Shown one piece after another: positions 42,368 to 50,575 of a stretch of 50,575 nucleotides of DNA. Positions within the stretch are counted from its first letter, which is position 1. Each line of letters starts with the position of its first letter. This DNA comes from Bacteroidota bacterium (GTDB lineage Bacteria > Bacteroidota > Bacteroidia > Bacteroidales > UBA12077). The notes below the pieces were generated by a model, which had not been told where the DNA came from, searched no databases, and saw only the letters and a program-made list of their open reading frames with translations. The stretch is taken from positions 1-50,575 of the forward strand of contig JAIFLC010000045.1 in NCBI GenBank assembly GCA_020049295.1, in the 5' to 3' direction. The translations under genes were made by a program, and so were the position numbers.

Positions 42368-43915
42368 ATGTCTTTGAAAAGAAAAATTCTTGAACTCCAA
42401 ATGAAGCGAGAAAAAGCTCTTCAGGGAGGTGGTGAAAAAGCTATCGAAAAGCAGGTTGCCATGGGCAAAATGACTGCTCGCGAAAGAATCATTACTCTGC
42501 TTGATGAAAACTCATTTCATGAGTATGATCTTTTTGTTGAGCATGAGGCTCGCGATTTCGGAATGGATGGAAAAATTTTACAAGGCGATGGTGTAATTAC
42601 AGGAACAGGAACAATTTATGGTGCACCAATTTGTATCTATGCCCAAGACTTCACAGTTGCTGGTGGATCTTTGGGCTTGATGCACGCACGTAAAATTACC
42701 AAAATCATGGATCATGCCATGAAAATGCGTGTACCAATCATTGGTATTAACGACTCTGGTGGTGCCCGTATTCAGGAAGGAGTAAACTCATTAGCCGGTT
42801 ATGGTGAGATATTCTACCGTAATACTATGGCTTCAGGAGTTATCCCTCAAATTTCGGTTATCCTCGGTCCTTGTGCTGGTGGTGCTGTTTATTCTCCAGC
42901 TCTTACCGATTTTGTTTTTGTGGTTGAAAATATATCAAAAATGTTTATTACCGGACCGGAAGTTATTAAAACTGTTCTTGGTGAAGAGATATCAATGGAA
43001 GATCTTGGTGGTGCAAGAGTTCATAGCGAAATTACTGGTAATGCGCATTTCTTCGCCGAAAGCGAAATCGAATGTTTCGATCAGATTAAAAAGTTGATCA
43101 CCTATATTCCATGGAATAATGGCCAAAAGGCACGTCCATTTGAATTAAAAGAACCATTACATAGTAAATACAAAATTGACGAAATTGTTCCCGGAAATCC
43201 AAAAGAACCTTATGATGTACGTGATGTAATTAAAGCAATTACTGATGGATCGGAATTTTTCGAAATAATGGAATTATGGGCCAGAAATATTGTTATTGGT
43301 TTTGGTCGTATGAATGGCGAAACAATTGGCTTTGTTGCTAATCAACCTATGTATCTTGCTGGGGTTCTTGATGTTGATTCATCAGATAAAGCAGCACGCT
43401 TTATACGTTATTGCGATGCATTCCAGATCCCAATTGTTACATTAGTTGATCTTCCTGGTTATTTGCCAGGAGTTGATCAGGAACATGCCGGAGTTATCAG
43501 ACATGGAGCTAAATTATTATATGCTTATTCTGAAGCTAATGTTCCAAAAATGACAGTTATACTTCGTAAAGCTTATGGTGGAGGTTATATTGCAATGAAT
43601 TCACGTCACCTGAATGCTGATTTCGTTTTTGCATGGCCAGGAGCCGAAATTGCAGTTATGGGACCCGAAGGTGCTGCTAATATTATCTTCCGTAAAGAAA
43701 TTACCGAAGCAAAAGATCCTGAAAAAATGCGTAAGCAAAAAGTTAAGGAATACAAAGAAAAGTTCGCTAATCCTTATGTTGCTGCTGCTAAAGGTTATGT
43801 TGATTCTGTTATTGAACCTAAAGAAACACGCAAATTCCTATTGCATGGTATCGAAGTTTCTAAAAATAAAGTCGACAGAAAACCTATTAAGAAACATGGT
43901 ATTCCTCCTTTTTAA
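42368..43915 (+). CDS. acyl-CoA carboxylase, carboxyltransferase subunit
   Basis: The 515-residue protein has the two-halved crotonase-like carboxyltransferase fold. The first half contains GDGVITGTGTIYGAPICIYA, IIGINDSGGARIQEGVNSLA and the CoA-binding LGPCAGGAVYSPAL. The second has IPIVTLVDLPGYLPGVDQEH, KMTVILRKAYGGGYIAM and WPGAEIAVMGPEGAANIIF. Length and motifs fit propionyl-CoA carboxylase beta or methylmalonyl-CoA decarboxylase alpha (MmdA). The next gene is a biotin carrier protein; there is no biotin carboxylase gene in the pair and no oadB/oadG-type membrane gene nearby, so the reaction direction remains open. Confidence 0.92.
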   Translation: MSLKRKILELQMKREKALQGGGEKAIEKQVAMGKMTARERIITLLDENSFHEYDLFVEHEARDFGMDGKILQGDGVITGTGTIYGAPICIYAQDFTVAGGSLGLMHARKITKIMDHAMKMRVPIIGINDSGGARIQEGVNSLAGYGEIFYRNTMASGVIPQISVILGPCAGGAVYSPALTDFVFVVENISKMFITGPEVIKTVLGEEISMEDLGGARVHSEITGNAHFFAESEIECFDQIKKLITYIPWNNGQKARPFELKEPLHSKYKIDEIVPGNPKEPYDVRDVIKAITDGSEFFEIMELWARNIVIGFGRMNGETIGFVANQPMYLAGVLDVDSSDKAARFIRYCDAFQIPIVTLVDLPGYLPGVDQEHAGVIRHGAKLLYAYSEANVPKMTVILRKAYGGGYIAMNSRHLNADFVFAWPGAEIAVMGPEGAANIIFRKEITEAKDPEKMRKQKVKEYKEKFANPYVAAAKGYVDSVIEPKETRKFLLHGIEVSKNKVDRKPIKKHGIPPF

Positions 43916-43926
43916 TCTTTAAAATT

Positions 43927-44304
43927 ATGACTAAAAAATCGAAAACAACAAAAGAAGTAATCGAAGAACCGGTTATAAATGCAGAGGAATCCTTAAAAGA
44001 ACGGTTTCGTACAATTTGTATTGATGGGGATAAGTACAAAACACTTTATACCGAGAAGTACAAGAAAAGAATTAATTATGAAATACCTAACTTTAAGAAA
44101 ATATATTCTGAAATTCCTGGAACAGTCATAAAAATACATGTTACCGAGGGTCAGAAAGTTAACGAAGGTGATCTTATGCTAGTTCTTGACGCGATGAAAA
44201 TGAAGAATAAATTAATATTTCCAATTGGTGGAACTGTTAAGAAAATACATGTTTTGGAAAATGAAAAAATTCCAAAAAGACATCTGATGATTGAATTAAA
44301 GTAA
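43927..44304 (+). CDS. biotin carboxyl carrier protein
   Basis: The 125-residue protein has a biotinyl domain at its end with the modified lysine at residue 91 in VLDAMKMKNK. The lead-in is PGTVIKIHVTEGQKVNEGD and the close is GGTVKKIHVLENEKIPK. The N-terminal ~50 residues are charged and probably bind the partner subunit. It begins 11 bp after the carboxyltransferase gene, so the two are one unit. It carries carboxylated biotin between a carboxylase and the carboxyltransferase; the biotin carboxylase must be coded elsewhere, if the complex is a carboxylase. Confidence 0.93.
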   Translation: MTKKSKTTKEVIEEPVINAEESLKERFRTICIDGDKYKTLYTEKYKKRINYEIPNFKKIYSEIPGTVIKIHVTEGQKVNEGDLMLVLDAMKMKNKLIFPIGGTVKKIHVLENEKIPKRHLMIELK

Positions 44305-45156: not shown

Positions 45157-45328
45157 GAATAAATTTTTAATGGATAAAATTAGCAATTATTAATGAAAAG
45201 GATAATAAATATGAAGTCTTTTAGCATACGTTGAATAATGAAGAATAATTAACAATTGTTAATAACTGTCGTTAAAAAAAACACTAAAATTATAATTCTA
45301 AAAAGGTTTTTTTTGACTTGTGTATTAT

Positions 45329-45336
45329 TACCTTTG
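45329..45336 (+). promoter_or_regulatory. -7 promoter element of dnaB
   Basis: TACCTTTG is an exact TAnnTTTG, 24 bases before the dnaB ATG. A TTTG at 45312-45315 is 13 bases upstream, closer than usual. Confidence 0.5.
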
Positions 45337-45359
45337 ATTCCCTAAAAAATGAATCGAAG

Positions 45360-46901
45360 ATGGTAGCCAATACAAAAAATACGAAAAAGGCTGTGCAGAA
45401 AGCAGTTCCCAATAGTGAGTACGGAAAATTACCACCACAGGCATTAGACCTTGAAGAAGCAGTTCTTGGTGCGATAATGCTTGAGAAAGATGCAATTATA
45501 TCAGTGATGGATATTATTCGTCCAGACAGTTTTTATAAAGATTCACATCAGAAGATTTTTAGTGCTGTACTCGATCTTTCGCAAGCCTTGCAGCCTATAG
45601 ATATTCTTACAGTTACCGAAGAGCTTCGAAGAAGAGATCAGTTAGATGAAGTTGGTGGTCCATTTTATATAACTACTCTTACTAGTAAGGTAGCTTCGGC
45701 TGCTCATATTGAATATCATGCACGTATTATTGCTCAAAAATATATTCAACGCGAACTTATTCGTGTTTCTTCCGAAATTCAAACGAAAGCCTATGACGAT
45801 AGTTTGGATGTTAATGATCTAATTGATTTTTCTGAATCAGAATTATTTAAGGTAGCTGAGGGAAATATTAAAAAGGAAACTACAAAAATAAATATTCTTA
45901 TCCAGGAAGCCATCAGTCAAATTGAAGAAGCCGCAAAACGTGAAGATGGACTTAGTGGTGTTCCATCAGGATTTACCAAACTCGACAGGGTTACTTCAGG
46001 ATGGCAAAAATCAGATTTGGTTATTATCGCAGCTCGCCCATCAATGGGTAAAACGGCCTTTGTATTGTCTATGGCAAAAAATATGGCTGTTGATCATAAC
46101 CGAAGTGTTGCATTGTTTTCATTAGAGATGTCTTCGGTTCAATTGGTAAACCGTTTAATTGTAAGTGAAACAGAGCTTCCCTCAGATAAAATCAGAAATG
46201 GTCGTCTCGAACCATTTGAATGGGAGCAATTGGAATACCGAATAAAAAAACTGGTTGAAGCTCCAATTTATATTGATGATACGCCTGCTATTTCTGTATT
46301 TGAGCTTCGTGCAAAATGCCGTAGGTTAATGAGTCAGCAAAAAATTGATATTATTATTATCGATTATCTTCAGTTGATGACAGGAACGAATGATAATAAA
46401 GGTAATCGCGAACAAGAAGTAAGTTTGATTTCCAGGTCGCTTAAAGGAATAGCTAAGGAGCTAAATGTGCCAATACTTGCTCTTTCGCAGCTTAATCGTT
46501 CTGTTGAGCTTCGTTCCGGTACAAAACGACCACAATTATCTGACTTGCGTGAATCAGGAGCTATTGAGCAGGATGCCGATATGGTATTATTTATTCATCG
46601 CCCTGAGAAATATGGCCTTACCGAGGATGAAGATGGAAATTCGCTTATCGGAATGGCCGAAATAATTTTGGCAAAACATCGTAATGGAGCCCTGGCGGAT
46701 ATTAAGCTTAAATTTAGAAATGAGTTGGCTAAATTCGAAGACTATGAGGATGATTATGCTGCTGTTACTGCCGATGAAAGTCTTAAGAATGGAGGCGCAT
46801 TAACCTTTGGTTCAAAGATGAACAAGGATAAAGATTCGAAGAATAAGGATATTTTTGGATTAGGACATAATAGTAACTTTGACAACGAAGCACCATTTTA
46901 G
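45360..46901 (+). CDS. dnaB: replicative DNA helicase DnaB
   Basis: The 513-residue protein has the N-terminal DnaB domain (PPQALDLEEAVLGAIMLEKD near residues 28-47) and a RecA-like ATPase domain with Walker A RPSMGKTAFVL, the Walker B IIIIDYLQLM and the DnaB motif SQLNRSVELRSGTKRPQLSD. The hexamer unwinds DNA at the replication fork. The ATG at 45360 (M-V-A-N-T-K-N) is preferred over an upstream TTG because a -7 promoter box lies between them. The C-terminal tail is long and asparagine-rich. Confidence 0.97.
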   Translation: MVANTKNTKKAVQKAVPNSEYGKLPPQALDLEEAVLGAIMLEKDAIISVMDIIRPDSFYKDSHQKIFSAVLDLSQALQPIDILTVTEELRRRDQLDEVGGPFYITTLTSKVASAAHIEYHARIIAQKYIQRELIRVSSEIQTKAYDDSLDVNDLIDFSESELFKVAEGNIKKETTKINILIQEAISQIEEAAKREDGLSGVPSGFTKLDRVTSGWQKSDLVIIAARPSMGKTAFVLSMAKNMAVDHNRSVALFSLEMSSVQLVNRLIVSETELPSDKIRNGRLEPFEWEQLEYRIKKLVEAPIYIDDTPAISVFELRAKCRRLMSQQKIDIIIIDYLQLMTGTNDNKGNREQEVSLISRSLKGIAKELNVPILALSQLNRSVELRSGTKRPQLSDLRESGAIEQDADMVLFIHRPEKYGLTEDEDGNSLIGMAEIILAKHRNGALADIKLKFRNELAKFEDYEDDYAAVTADESLKNGGALTFGSKMNKDKDSKNKDIFGLGHNSNFDNEAPF

Positions 46902-46919
46902 TCGATTATATTACCTAAT

Positions 46920-47618
46920 TTATAGAATGTCTTTTAATTCGTTGAGCGATGTTATCTCAAAGGTAATATCTTCGCTATGTTGAATATTATCAGAATTAAA
47001 GAAAACCTGGTCAATACCCGTGTTTTTTGCACCTAAAATATCAGTTTCGAGATCATCACCAATCATCAAACATTCATTTTTTTGGGCATTAGATAATCTT
47101 AATGCATGCTCAAAAATTATCGGACTGGGTTTTTGTGCACCAGCATCTTCGGATGTAATAATTCCTTTAAAATACTGATCAAGATTGCAGTTTTTTAATT
47201 TATCAGATTGGATTTCACTAAAACCATTGGTAATTATATAAAGCGTGTACTTGTTTTTTAGGTATGACAAAGCTTCGTGTGTGTAAGGAAACAACTGTTT
47301 TTTAGTTGGACTGATATTTACGTAATCATCACCAATTTGTTGGGCAAGCTTTTCGTCATAAATTCCAAATTCTTCAAGGGTTAAAGCAAATCGCTTCCAA
47401 CGCAAAATTGATTTTTCAATTTTGTTTTCGCGATAATCTTTCCAGAGAATATCATTATGTTTATTATACGCTGTATAAAATGTCTCGAACGAACTAAAAA
47501 TTGAACCGAGGTTTCGATTTTGGTATATCTCAAGAAATGTTTCTTTGGCATTATTATCGAAATCCCAAAGGGTTCGGTCAAGATCAAAATAGATATATTT
47601 ATACTTTTCCAATTTCAT
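46920..47618 (-). CDS. YjjG family HAD phosphatase (noncanonical pyrimidine nucleotidase)
   Basis: The 232-residue protein has the HAD motifs: DLDRTLWDF (first D nucleophile) with the YjjG-like W-D-F, ITNGF for motif II, K near QKPSP, and GDDLETDILGA for motifs III/IV. The helical cap comes between. E. coli YjjG dephosphorylates 5'-monophosphates of odd pyrimidine nucleotides. It is convergent with dnaB, 18 bp away, and divergent from the NTF2-like gene. Confidence 0.9.
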   Translation of the reverse strand: MKLEKYKYIYFDLDRTLWDFDNNAKETFLEIYQNRNLGSIFSSFETFYTAYNKHNDILWKDYRENKIEKSILRWKRFALTLEEFGIYDEKLAQQIGDDYVNISPTKKQLFPYTHEALSYLKNKYTLYIITNGFSEIQSDKLKNCNLDQYFKGIITSEDAGAQKPSPIIFEHALRLSNAQKNECLMIGDDLETDILGAKNTGIDQVFFNSDNIQHSEDITFEITSLNELKDIL

Positions 47619-47728: not shown

Positions 47729-48205
47729 ATGATAAAATCATTATTTCTACTTGTATTTATTGCTGTATTATTTGCTTGTACGGAAAAATCTACTTTTAAC
47801 AAAGAGTCTGCCATTGTTGAACTCAATGCTGTTATGGACAACTGGCATCTGTCTGCTGCGATAGCCGATGAGGATGTGTTCTTTAATAGTATGGACTCCA
47901 ATGCCGTTTATTTAGGTACTGATCCAAAAGAGAGGTGGTTAAAACATGAGTTTGAAACATGGGCTATGCCTTATTTTCAGAGAGATGTTGCTTGGGCCTT
48001 TAAACCCTATAACCGTTACTGGGAATTTTCAAATAATGGCGAAATAGCTTGGTTCGACGAGCTTCTCGAAACTCACATGGGCGTTTGCAGAGGATCCGGT
48101 GTACTCCAGAAATATGAAAATGGATGGAGAATTAAGCATTATAATCTCGCACTTACGCTTCCAAATGAAAAAATGAAAGAATTCAGGTTGATTCAAGGAA
48201 TTTAA
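47729..48205 (+). CDS. NTF2-like (SnoaL/DUF4440-type) lipoprotein
   Basis: The 158-residue protein has a lipoprotein signal (V-L-F-A-C, cysteine at 17). It has a cone-shaped NTF2-like fold outline: VMDNWHLSAAIADEDVFFNSM, then DSNAVYLGTDPKERW, and the closing strands NGEIAWFDELLETHMGVCRG and VLQKYENGWRIKHYNLAL. Such domains bind or turn over small molecules, and no substrate can be inferred. It lies 85 bp before the amidotransferase-like lipoprotein gene on the same strand. Confidence 0.85.
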   Translation: MIKSLFLLVFIAVLFACTEKSTFNKESAIVELNAVMDNWHLSAAIADEDVFFNSMDSNAVYLGTDPKERWLKHEFETWAMPYFQRDVAWAFKPYNRYWEFSNNGEIAWFDELLETHMGVCRGSGVLQKYENGWRIKHYNLALTLPNEKMKEFRLIQGI

Positions 48206-48290: not shown

Positions 48291-49448
48291 ATGAAAAAAT
48301 TATATATACCTCTGGCAATAATAGTTTTGGTGGTACTTGTGGGTTTAATGGGATGCAAGGATGATACCAATAAACGTTCCTATTTCAGAAAACTGGAAAG
48401 AAGCCGAGAAACTATAGCGGTTGGAATTTATAAAACGACAAATCCAAATCTGATTAATATTGCAAATATTATTGAAGCACTTAAAATTGATGGCGATATT
48501 GTTGCCGTTACACTTACTGATGAAGATATTTTAAGATCTGAACTAGAAAATATTGATGTTTTACTTTTTCCAGGGCTAGATTCAGAGGACCTTAATGATT
48601 CTATTAACGGCAAGGTATTACAGATTATACGTAATTTCACAGTAGAACGCGGAAAAGGAACTATAGGTATATGCGGCGGTAGTAATATATTTTCTAAGCT
48701 GGACAATGATTGCGAAACAATAAACCTCCTTGGTATTCAAAATATCCAGATGAAGAAGAGTAAAAGAACTCCTGGAATAATTAAAATTGATGTGAGCGAA
48801 CGTGGTTCTGCCATTTTTCCTGAACTGACAGATTCTCTGGGCGCTTTTATTGATTACCATGGTGATCTTATTTTTGATACAGATAGTAGCATTAATTCTA
48901 ATTTACAAAATGTTATTCATCACACATATGGTGAAAATTCACAAACATTGTTTATTACCTTAAATATTGGAAAAGGGAGAGCTTTTCTCGCTGCTAGTCA
49001 CCCCGAATCAACACCAGGCATGCGCTGGATGTTACCCCGAATGGTTCGATGGGTTATGGGTCGCGAATTAATAACTTACAATAACCTGGTGATGAAACCA
49101 GAATATTTTAATAGCGAGATACTTTATAATAAAGAATATACTAATCGCTTTGAATATCTTATAAATCAGCTTGATGAGAAAAGAAAAAAGGATCGCTTAC
49201 TTGCTTTGGAAGAGTTACAAGAGAAATATCCATGGTTTGCAGCAGAAAAGGTAAGACAACTTCTAACTGATAAAAACTCCGAGGTACGATTAAGGGCTGC
49301 ACAATACTTGAGTGATATAGGTTATACCATTGCGATTGAAGATTTGGAGACCACTATTGATAAAGAAAGAAATAAAAAAAACAAAGAGAAATTTAAAGAA
49401 TATTTAAAAAACCTGGAACAAATGATTGGTCAGGACTCTAGTATATAA
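48291..49448 (+). CDS. lipoprotein with BPL_N-like amidotransferase domain and HEAT-like repeats
   Basis: The 385-residue protein has a lipoprotein signal ending L-M-G-C (cysteine 22). Residues ~40-250 resemble the class I amidotransferase-like domain of biotin-protein ligase N-terminal type (BPL_N). They have a nucleophile-type elbow TIGICGGSNIF with C128 and the pair H237/E239 in SHPESTPGMRW, so a full Cys-His-Glu triad is possible. The C-terminal ~100 residues look like HEAT repeats (VRQLLTDKNSEVRLRAAQYL). ATG at 48291 is preferred to a TTG three codons earlier. RmuC begins 8 bp after its stop. The role is unknown. Confidence 0.72.
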   Translation: MKKLYIPLAIIVLVVLVGLMGCKDDTNKRSYFRKLERSRETIAVGIYKTTNPNLINIANIIEALKIDGDIVAVTLTDEDILRSELENIDVLLFPGLDSEDLNDSINGKVLQIIRNFTVERGKGTIGICGGSNIFSKLDNDCETINLLGIQNIQMKKSKRTPGIIKIDVSERGSAIFPELTDSLGAFIDYHGDLIFDTDSSINSNLQNVIHHTYGENSQTLFITLNIGKGRAFLAASHPESTPGMRWMLPRMVRWVMGRELITYNNLVMKPEYFNSEILYNKEYTNRFEYLINQLDEKRKKDRLLALEELQEKYPWFAAEKVRQLLTDKNSEVRLRAAQYLSDIGYTIAIEDLETTIDKERNKKNKEKFKEYLKNLEQMIGQDSSI

Positions 49449-49456
49449 CAAAACAA

Positions 49457-50575
49457 ATGAATAATATCCTATTTATAATTATAGCTGCTGCTGCGGGATT
49501 CGCAGCAGCTTGGTTTATTAGCAGGTTGGTTTTTAACAGAAATATGGGTTTATCGAAAGATGAATCTGAAATTCTGCAACAAGATTTGATCAATACTACT
49601 ACAGAAATTAAGGTAAAAGAAGAGAGATTAAATATGATTAGCGAGAACTTACAAGCTTTAAAAACTGAGAATGATTATAAGGATTCTCAAATAATGAGTT
49701 TGCAAAAGCTAATTACTAGTAAAGAATCAGATCTTAAGCATATTACAGAACGACTGAATGAACAAAAAAAGGAGGTTGATGAGCTGCAGCAAAAGTTTAT
49801 TAAAGAGTTCGAAAATCTTGCCAATAAAATCCTCGAAGAAAAAACAGGAAAATTTACAGAACAGAACAAAACGAATCTTGATGCAATACTAAAACCATTG
49901 CAGGAAAAGATTAAAGATTTTGAGAAGCGTGTTGAGGAAACCCATAAAAAAGATATTGAAGATAGAGCTTCTATTCAGGAGCGAATACGTAACCTGATTG
50001 AATCGAGCAATAAGATTAGTGAAGAAGCCAATAATCTTACAAAAGCGCTAAAAGGCGAATCAAAAACACAAGGAAACTGGGGAGAACTAATTCTGGAAAA
50101 TATTCTTCAAAAATCGGGATTGGTTAAAGATCGTGAATATTTTGTTCAGCCGTCGTTCAAAACCGAAGACGGTAATCGTTTTCAGCCCGATGTTGTTGTA
50201 AAGTTTCCTGATAATAGAAATATTATAATAGATTCTAAGGTTTCGTTAGTTGCTTACGAGAGATTTGTTACCGCAGATAATCAGGAAAAACAGGAAAGAG
50301 CATTGAATGAGCATTTAATATCAATAAAAAATCACATAAAACAATTGAGTGAAAAGAAATATCAAGATCTAGTTGATATTAATTCGTTAGATTTTGTAAT
50401 GTTGTTCATGCCAATTGAACCATCATTCCTTATTGCAATTCAAAAGGATCCAGAACTATGGAACTATGCTTATGAAAGAGGAATAATACTGATTAGTCCA
50501 ACAAATTTAATTGCTGTTCTAAAAATGGCTTCTAATTTTTGGGAACAGGATAAACAAAATAAGAATGTTATGGAA
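49457..50575 (+). CDS. rmuC: DNA recombination protein RmuC, N-terminal part
   Basis: The gene runs off the window end; 373 codons are visible. The N-terminus has one membrane helix (about residues 3-25, rich in alanine), then a long coiled coil to ~190. The RmuC domain has SKTQGNWGELILENILQKSG, then QPDVVVKFPDNRNIIIDSKVSLVAYE and DFVMLFMPIEPSFLIAIQKD. The last visible part is IILISPTNLIAVLKMASNFWEQ. RmuC limits inversion at short repeats and carries an endonuclease-like domain. It starts 8 bp after the amidotransferase-like lipoprotein gene and is likely cotranscribed. Confidence 0.95.
   Translation, partial: MNNILFIIIAAAAGFAAAWFISRLVFNRNMGLSKDESEILQQDLINTTTEIKVKEERLNMISENLQALKTENDYKDSQIMSLQKLITSKESDLKHITERLNEQKKEVDELQQKFIKEFENLANKILEEKTGKFTEQNKTNLDAILKPLQEKIKDFEKRVEETHKKDIEDRASIQERIRNLIESSNKISEEANNLTKALKGESKTQGNWGELILENILQKSGLVKDREYFVQPSFKTEDGNRFQPDVVVKFPDNRNIIIDSKVSLVAYERFVTADNQEKQERALNEHLISIKNHIKQLSEKKYQDLVDINSLDFVMLFMPIEPSFLIAIQKDPELWNYAYERGIILISPTNLIAVLKMASNFWEQDKQNKNVME

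Follow-up and report, generated by a model that had tools for sequence, protein, structure and literature searches.

A predicted lipoprotein with a degenerate class I amidotransferase-like domain and a HEAT tail encoded next to rmuC in Bacteroidales

The window analysed here, i.e., the whole stretch of 50,575 nucleotides of the Bacteroidota contig JAIFLC010000045.1, carries towards its end an ORF (nt 48291–49448, + strand, ATG to stop, 385 aa) coding for a predicted lipoprotein with a degenerate class I glutamine amidotransferase (GATase)-like domain followed by a HEAT domain. The reading we favour, with moderate confidence, is that of a pseudo-amidotransferase, a lipid-anchored binding scaffold derived from an exported enzyme. 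The form here called canonical, with its full Cys-His-Glu triad and oxyanion glycines, is probably a hydrolase of amide bonds in the periplasm, with a link to C45 Ntn-hydrolases, and the window protein would belong to a genus-restricted paralogue of this exported GATase-like/HEAT family (the window clade), whose active-site region has decayed and where catalysis is most likely gone. The scaffold would share its transcript with rmuC and bind a partner by means of the HEAT tail and of a single conserved surface on the GATase domain. It is indeed the decay of the active site, while the tail is kept, that points to a probably non-catalytic binding protein. The common view of class I amidotransferases is that of cytoplasmic, glutamine-hydrolysing partners of synthases.

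Export signal, fold and layout

The ORF proposed in the initial annotation is real, and C128, H237 and E239 are present with the numbering given there. The export signal it had read was also confirmed: the lipoprotein signal peptide (nt 48291–48356, + strand) has an LMGC lipobox with a predicted lipidated Cys22, which is invariant in 24 aligned relatives. The lipobox pattern occurs in 16 of the 17 other clade rows of our alignment and, among the 63 canonical rows, in 47; by eye it was recognised in more, including four further canonical rows (L050, L060, L089 and L097). Some of the remaining canonical rows carry an ordinary signal peptide or were cut at the start. The window protein would reside on the periplasmic side.

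An AlphaFold2 model of the window protein, obtained from a 62-row alignment (the alignments for structure prediction held 62 and 47 of the 81 available rows), has a GATase core, with mean pLDDT of 87.3 and pTM of 0.86. The GATase-like domain spans residues 41–260 (nt 48411–49070, + strand). C128 (nt 48672–48674, + strand) is placed by the model at a strand-helix elbow (strand 123–127, helix 128–134), i.e., at the nucleophile-elbow position, while H237 and E239, in the H237-P-E239-S-TPGMRW246 stretch (nt 48999–49028, + strand), follow the strand 229–234. When the model was compared with known structures by VIA-align, PdxT/Pdx2 ranked first (2nv2_F, Z 19.8, rmsd 2.5 Å over 185 residues, model residues 41–259), and HisH (Z 17.9) and 4e5v_A (Z 17.0) were also matched; by Foldseek the best match was the ThuA-like 1t0b_A (2.1e-8), then HisH 7ac8_F (5.4e-8). 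The model of a canonical relative (L075, pLDDT 93.6) also matches PdxT (Z 21.6). In a profile comparison with seven HisH sequences, the GIC of the window protein pairs with the GIC of HisH; since that alignment stops short of the HxE end, the equivalence of H237 and E239 relies on the HPE motif and on where the two residues sit, past the final strand of the core. According to the model, the flavodoxin-like GATase fold and the nucleophile elbow place the window protein in the class I glutamine amidotransferase superfamily.

The amidotransferase-like fold assigned at first stands in the structure prediction. BPL_N (PF09825) is the best Pfam match for the GATase part (residues 72–131) but at 19.6 bits it lies under the gathering cut-off of 24.2, so that Pfam alone would make no such call, and the window protein lacks a biotin-ligase domain. 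The same cut-off is passed by all four canonical relatives tested (L042, L060, L066 and L075). The top NCBIfam match of the window protein is HisH, a weak one (20.4 bits, cut-off 105.4). DJ-1/PfpI (PF01965) gave no match to it at E up to 1, and is passed by the canonical L075 (27.1 bits, cut-off 26.6) but not by L042, L060 and L066; when the window model was compared with known structures, the 50 matches listed by either program included no DJ-1 chain, which excludes nothing. PdxT/Pdx2 and HisH glutaminase subunits share with residues 41–259 of the window protein the fold, as well as the HPE motif, and the GIC at the nucleophile elbow pairs with that of HisH; unlike them, the window protein adds a lipobox and a HEAT tail and has lost residues of the canonical site, and no synthase partner was found at the window locus. 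ThuA-like proteins (1t0b; 4e5v from Parabacteroides) are structurally alike, and the window protein differs from them in the HEAT tail and in the HPE-type site. The HEAT-like tail noticed initially is borne out by Pfam, HEAT_2 (PF13646) being over its cut-off at residues 288–362 (32.5 vs. 27.7 bits), and by the helices that span residues 281 to 377 in the model; we delimit this domain at residues 281–380 (nt 49131–49430, + strand). Among the four canonical relatives, L042 and L066 pass the HEAT_2 cut-off and L060 and L075 fail it.

The combination of the two domains, regarded as unusual in the initial annotation, turned out to be the common layout of a family. A contig scan retrieved 112 relatives, of which the best 80, from Bacteroidota, Chlorobiota, Acidobacteriota and KSB1, were kept, and all 80 have the GATase-like part followed by a filled HEAT stretch. 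On the other hand, a sample of 395 Bacteroidota genomes gave, at E up to 1e-20, two matches besides the window's own, both of the GATase part only (profile positions 28–260 and 9–261 of 382), and no second full GATase-HEAT layout was seen in these genomes among the matches listed, with at most four candidates per genome. Given the spread over four phyla and the few matches in the 395 genomes, the family looks broad but patchy. No treatment of it was apparent in the titles and abstracts listed by full-text literature searches, in which PF09825 turned up in a single paper, a Pantoea genome comparison (PMC4428218).

Active-site residues and shift of constraint

In a tree of 77 of the 81 rows, L089, L095, L052 and L071 having been dropped as truncated or near-copies, the window protein and 17 of the 80 kept relatives lie on one side of a branch with SH-aLRT of 100 and length of 0.94. 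These 17 relatives are all from metagenome-assembled Bacteroidetes/Bacteroidales/Marinilabiliales. The clade has so far been found in one genus only, with an orthologue in 18 of its 20 genomes, including that of the window, where (79% complete) the focal gene is single copy. In this genus, the canonical copy stands alone in two genomes (G008 and G014) and coexists with a clade copy in three (G006, G012 and G017).

The full triad reported for the window protein is confirmed in this protein and in its sublineage (the window protein, L026, L027 and L028), where C, H and E are kept in four out of four, but it does not extend to the clade as a whole. Over 18 clade and 59 canonical rows (the same four rows being left out), C128 is kept in 13 of the 18 clade members, H237 in 10 and both in 8, with at least four changes of C128 and at least three of H237 counted within the clade on a tree that includes those two columns. 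Conservation of the Cys-His-Glu triad, as for a class I GATase enzyme, is consequently lacking across the clade orthologues, and the condition that the initial annotation had set against its own reading, non-conservation of the three residues, holds across the clade for two of them, C128 and H237. E239, instead, is conserved in 18 of 18 as part of the ExTPGMRW motif (T-x-GMRW in 18 of 18), even in rows without C and H. All the 63 canonical relatives have the full triad, and the positions P84, G85, G86, G96, C118, A119, H145, Y178, G181, P182, H236 and E238 (L075 numbering) are identical in every one of them.

When all 18 clade and 63 canonical rows were considered, five residues (G86, G96, A119, H145 and G149, L075 numbering) were found in none of the clade members and in 63 of 63 canonical rows; D202 and H204 are likewise absent from the clade, their stretch being a gap in 18 of 18, and present in 61 and 56 of the 63 canonical rows, respectively. 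Several of the first five are predicted to lie in the oxyanion and active-site loops. The window protein, its triad present, has nevertheless these seven residues changed or deleted as in the rest of the clade. On the contrary, TPGMRW, R250, R253, Y263, A336, D351 and E359 (window numbering; the last six corresponding to R249, R252, Y262, A334, D349 and E357 in L075) are kept in 17–18 of the 18 clade members and in 63 of 63 canonical relatives, which share with the window protein the GATase-HEAT layout, the ExTPGMRW motif and this R/R/Y/A/D/E framework. Judging from the alignment, the residues lost in the clade look like an active-site region, and would line the pocket, while those retained look like a framework, in which the Arg and Tyr residues and the Asp and Glu of the HEAT domain may hold the two domains together. 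The pattern suggests a loss of activity in the clade. Orthologues at one locus that retain three, two or one of the triad residues would constitute a natural experiment in the passage from enzyme to scaffold.

Since the window sublineage keeps the triad in all its members, surviving activity is the main rival to this interpretation: the protein would still work there as an exported cysteine amidohydrolase, on a new substrate and with its pocket rebuilt, and other members of the genus would have lost this activity. We regard this as unlikely, though it is the alternative to be taken most seriously. The presence of C128, H237 and E239 in the four members and the location of C128 on the nucleophile elbow of the model speak in its favour, and so does HisH, an active GATase, whose seven sequences read PGVG or PGQG where the window protein reads PGLD, so that lack of the second Gly does not in itself preclude activity. 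Against it, the window protein shares the substitution or deletion of seven residues found in 56–63 of the 63 canonical rows, C and H were lost repeatedly among its close kin, and the rate of the GATase domain, taken relative to that of the HEAT domain, is higher than in the canonical relatives.

This last point comes from tree lengths estimated on a fixed tree with 15 clade and 59 canonical rows (seven rows dropped): the HEAT/GATase ratio is 0.79 (0.60–0.90) in the clade vs. 1.55 (1.32–1.97) in the canonical relatives, and the clade value is the lower one in 40 of 40 column bootstraps. In pairwise comparisons (15 clade and 53 canonical rows, three near-identical clade rows and ten canonical ones being left out), 81 of the 105 clade pairs are more alike in the HEAT than in the GATase domain, vs. 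6 of the 1378 canonical pairs. The shift is due partly to a looser region 146–228 (identity of 0.31 in the clade vs. 0.50 in the canonical relatives, the loosest in the clade of seven segments compared) and partly to a tighter HEAT domain in the clade (0.51 vs. 0.38). In the clade, constraint has thus measurably shifted away from the catalytic domain and onto the repeats, which fits a passage from catalysis to binding.

A degenerate pocket could also serve as a ligand sensor, binding a small molecule without turnover while the HEAT tail relays the signal. Such a role would agree with the good fold that the GATase domain retains in the model, with the purifying selection acting on the gene, and with residues 66–94 of this domain, where 15 positions are conserved at 90% or more within the clade, seven of them in the clade only. 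However, the region 146–228, to which several of the lost residues belong, varies more within the clade than any other segment compared, so that no newly fixed pocket is evident there, and we consider a sensor improbable, more so than surviving activity.

In four close pairs of genomes, which represent one related group where H237 is already lost, dN/dS of the focal gene is 0.13, 0.15, 0.17 and 0.20, and it is 0.21 for L039/L076; for the same four pairs the values are 0.04–0.07 for the neighbouring HAD gene, 0.04–0.11 for rmuC and 0.13–0.31 for the SnoaL gene. Considering the five pairs with dS under 1, the focal gene ranges from 0.13 to 0.21 and SnoaL from 0.10 to 0.31. In the window sublineage dS is at least 1.68 in the computed pairs, and its dN/dS values (0.08–0.15) are therefore unsure. 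These ratios show a focal gene under purifying selection, which evolves faster than HAD and rmuC and about like SnoaL. That it is simply a pseudogene in progress might be argued from its dN/dS being above that of HAD and rmuC in the same pairs and from its absence in 2 of the 20 genomes of the genus, one of which is 93% complete; nevertheless, values of 0.13–0.21 comparable to those of SnoaL largely refute decay, all 17 clade members retrieved by the contig scan have a full-length open frame, and the HEAT domain and the ExTPGMRW motif are conserved, which makes this reading very improbable indeed. Readthrough or recoding was also considered for the single inner stop of five rows (TGA in L005, L006, L007 and L010; TAA in L013) and rejected because the alignment merely runs past the true C-terminal stop codons of these genes.

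The dnaB-rmuC locus

The gene neighbours named in the initial annotation are confirmed and prove to be conserved. A SnoaL_3/NTF2-like lipoprotein gene (nt 47729–48205, + strand; SnoaL_3, 7.3e-18; its lipobox read by eye) lies upstream, and rmuC (nt 49457–50575, + strand; PF02646, 8.1e-87), which runs off the window, begins 8 bp downstream of the focal gene; the locus is flanked by dnaB (nt 45318–46901, + strand) and by a HAD hydrolase gene (nt 46920–47618, − strand), both identified by family search and synteny. The usual order in the genus is dnaB, HAD (on the minus strand), SnoaL, focal gene and rmuC. The SnoaL orthologue adjoins the focal gene in 15 of the 17 clade loci of the contig scan, and an rmuC-family gene starts between −14 and 11 bp after the focal stop in 15 of the 16 loci having a readable downstream sequence; L032 has the focal gene without an adjoining rmuC, and the sequence of L028 ends before the rmuC slot. 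Further upstream in the window (nt 42368–44304), genes for a carboxyl transferase (PF01039) and then for a biotin carrier protein make up an ordinary acyl-CoA carboxylase pair.

The rmuC slot is occupied by two types of rmuC-family genes. Six loci have a gene 66–76% identical to the window rmuC, and nine (L029–L031, L033–L035, L038, L039 and L076) have another type, 25–27% identical to it in five loci and sub-threshold in four, with PF02646 at 1.8e-74 for L031. As two so different types are found in the same slot, the gene arrangement outlives changes in the rmuC gene. The focal gene is probably co-transcribed with rmuC. The nuclease-like domain of RmuC is expected to be cytoplasmic, so a direct contact with the lipoprotein across the membrane is doubtful. 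In G014, no frame of at least 60 codons exists on the rmuC strand in the 546 bp before rmuC, and a search of the whole genome found the canonical copy only and no clade-type gene.

SnoaL was evaluated as an obligate partner and discarded as such: it occurs in 16 of the 20 genomes, all with the focal gene, and is absent from G016 and G009 despite the focal gene being there. Its absence also from G008 and G014, both without the focal gene, leaves the association suggestive, though non-obligate. It was not found in five genomes of a sister genus, in a search run there without a positive control.

The clade might have arisen in place, out of a canonical copy residing at the dnaB-HAD locus. In the canonical L042 locus, dnaB and HAD are followed by a gene that by eye looks helicase-like and then by the canonical gene, and in topology tests the grouping of the clade with L042 is not rejected (p-AU 0.054), while that with L060 is rejected (p-AU 0.0002). 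In G010, dnaB is reduced to a fragment behind an apparent transposase start, as seen by eye (L035:1353–1999), due to either an insertion or an assembly break.

Canonical relatives and the C45 Ntn-hydrolase link

The canonical relatives differ from the window protein not only in the full triad but also in their gene context. A C45/AAT-type gene, belonging to one blastp cluster, is located upstream of the canonical gene in 22 of the 63 loci, directly in 20 of them and separated by one opposite-strand ORF in L044 and L084. The gap between the two genes is −4 to 39 bp in 16 loci, about 110 bp in L068, L070 and L071, and 414 bp in L091. The two cluster members tested, from L097 and L099, score over the PF03417 (AAT) cut-off, and their match to NF040521 (C45 family) is under the cut-off of that family. 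In three more loci a secreted protein of the C45/AAT type and the canonical protein are fused into one reading frame, as found by family search in KSB1 (L066:4780–7059, 759 aa) and by eye in Acidobacteriota (L093:1595–4039, 814 aa; L096:4729–7059, 776 aa). Homologues of C45 were detected in 9 of the 20 genomes of the genus, namely in all five with a canonical copy (G006, G008, G012, G014 and G017) and in 4 of the 15 with the degenerate copy only. The C45 enzyme was considered as a partner for the clade too, and rejected, as none of the ten matches in the genus is at the clade locus.

The canonical form would be an exported amide hydrolase that works with the Ntn-hydrolase on acyl- or amide-bearing nutrients. 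An exported HEAT-tailed family, fused to an Ntn-hydrolase in some phyla, points to an unstudied periplasmic amide chemistry, and this broader family with its C45 link seems a more interesting lead than the window clade. We tentatively propose, at somewhat less than even confidence, an undescribed exported system of two enzymes, a C45-type Ntn-hydrolase and a GATase-like/HEAT hydrolase encoded as neighbours or fused; one genus would have recruited a paralogue of the second enzyme, deprived of its active site, as a membrane-anchored HEAT scaffold in the rmuC operon. If true, the two-enzyme system would span Bacteroidota, Chlorobiota, Acidobacteriota and KSB1, and the window clade would be a periplasmic pseudo-amidotransferase midway in the loss of its catalysis, orthologues with and without the triad being found at one syntenic locus.

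Other canonical copies have different neighbours. SusD-like and TonB-dependent-receptor-like genes, recognised by eye, lie ahead of either the canonical gene or its pair with C45 in L054, L070, L083, L097 and L104, which suggests, on gene order, a nutrient-uptake operon. In 13 Marinifilaceae loci (L043, L045–L047, L049–L051, L057, L059, L067, L069, L075 and L078), cobD- and cobU-type genes lie upstream of the canonical copy (Pfam assignment in L049 only), and in nine of these loci the copy is followed by a cobT-type gene (DBI_PRT), as it is in L074, whose upstream side is cut. Beyond this cobT-type pair, cobS- and cobC-like genes were recognised by eye, which would place an amidotransferase-fold lipoprotein inside a cobalamin assembly operon. 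Finally, G004 encodes a distant relative (L025:518–1567, − strand) with a GICAGA site, where a T9SS type A sorting tail (TIGR04183) replaces the HEAT domain; by its sequence, this is another exported GATase-like protein.
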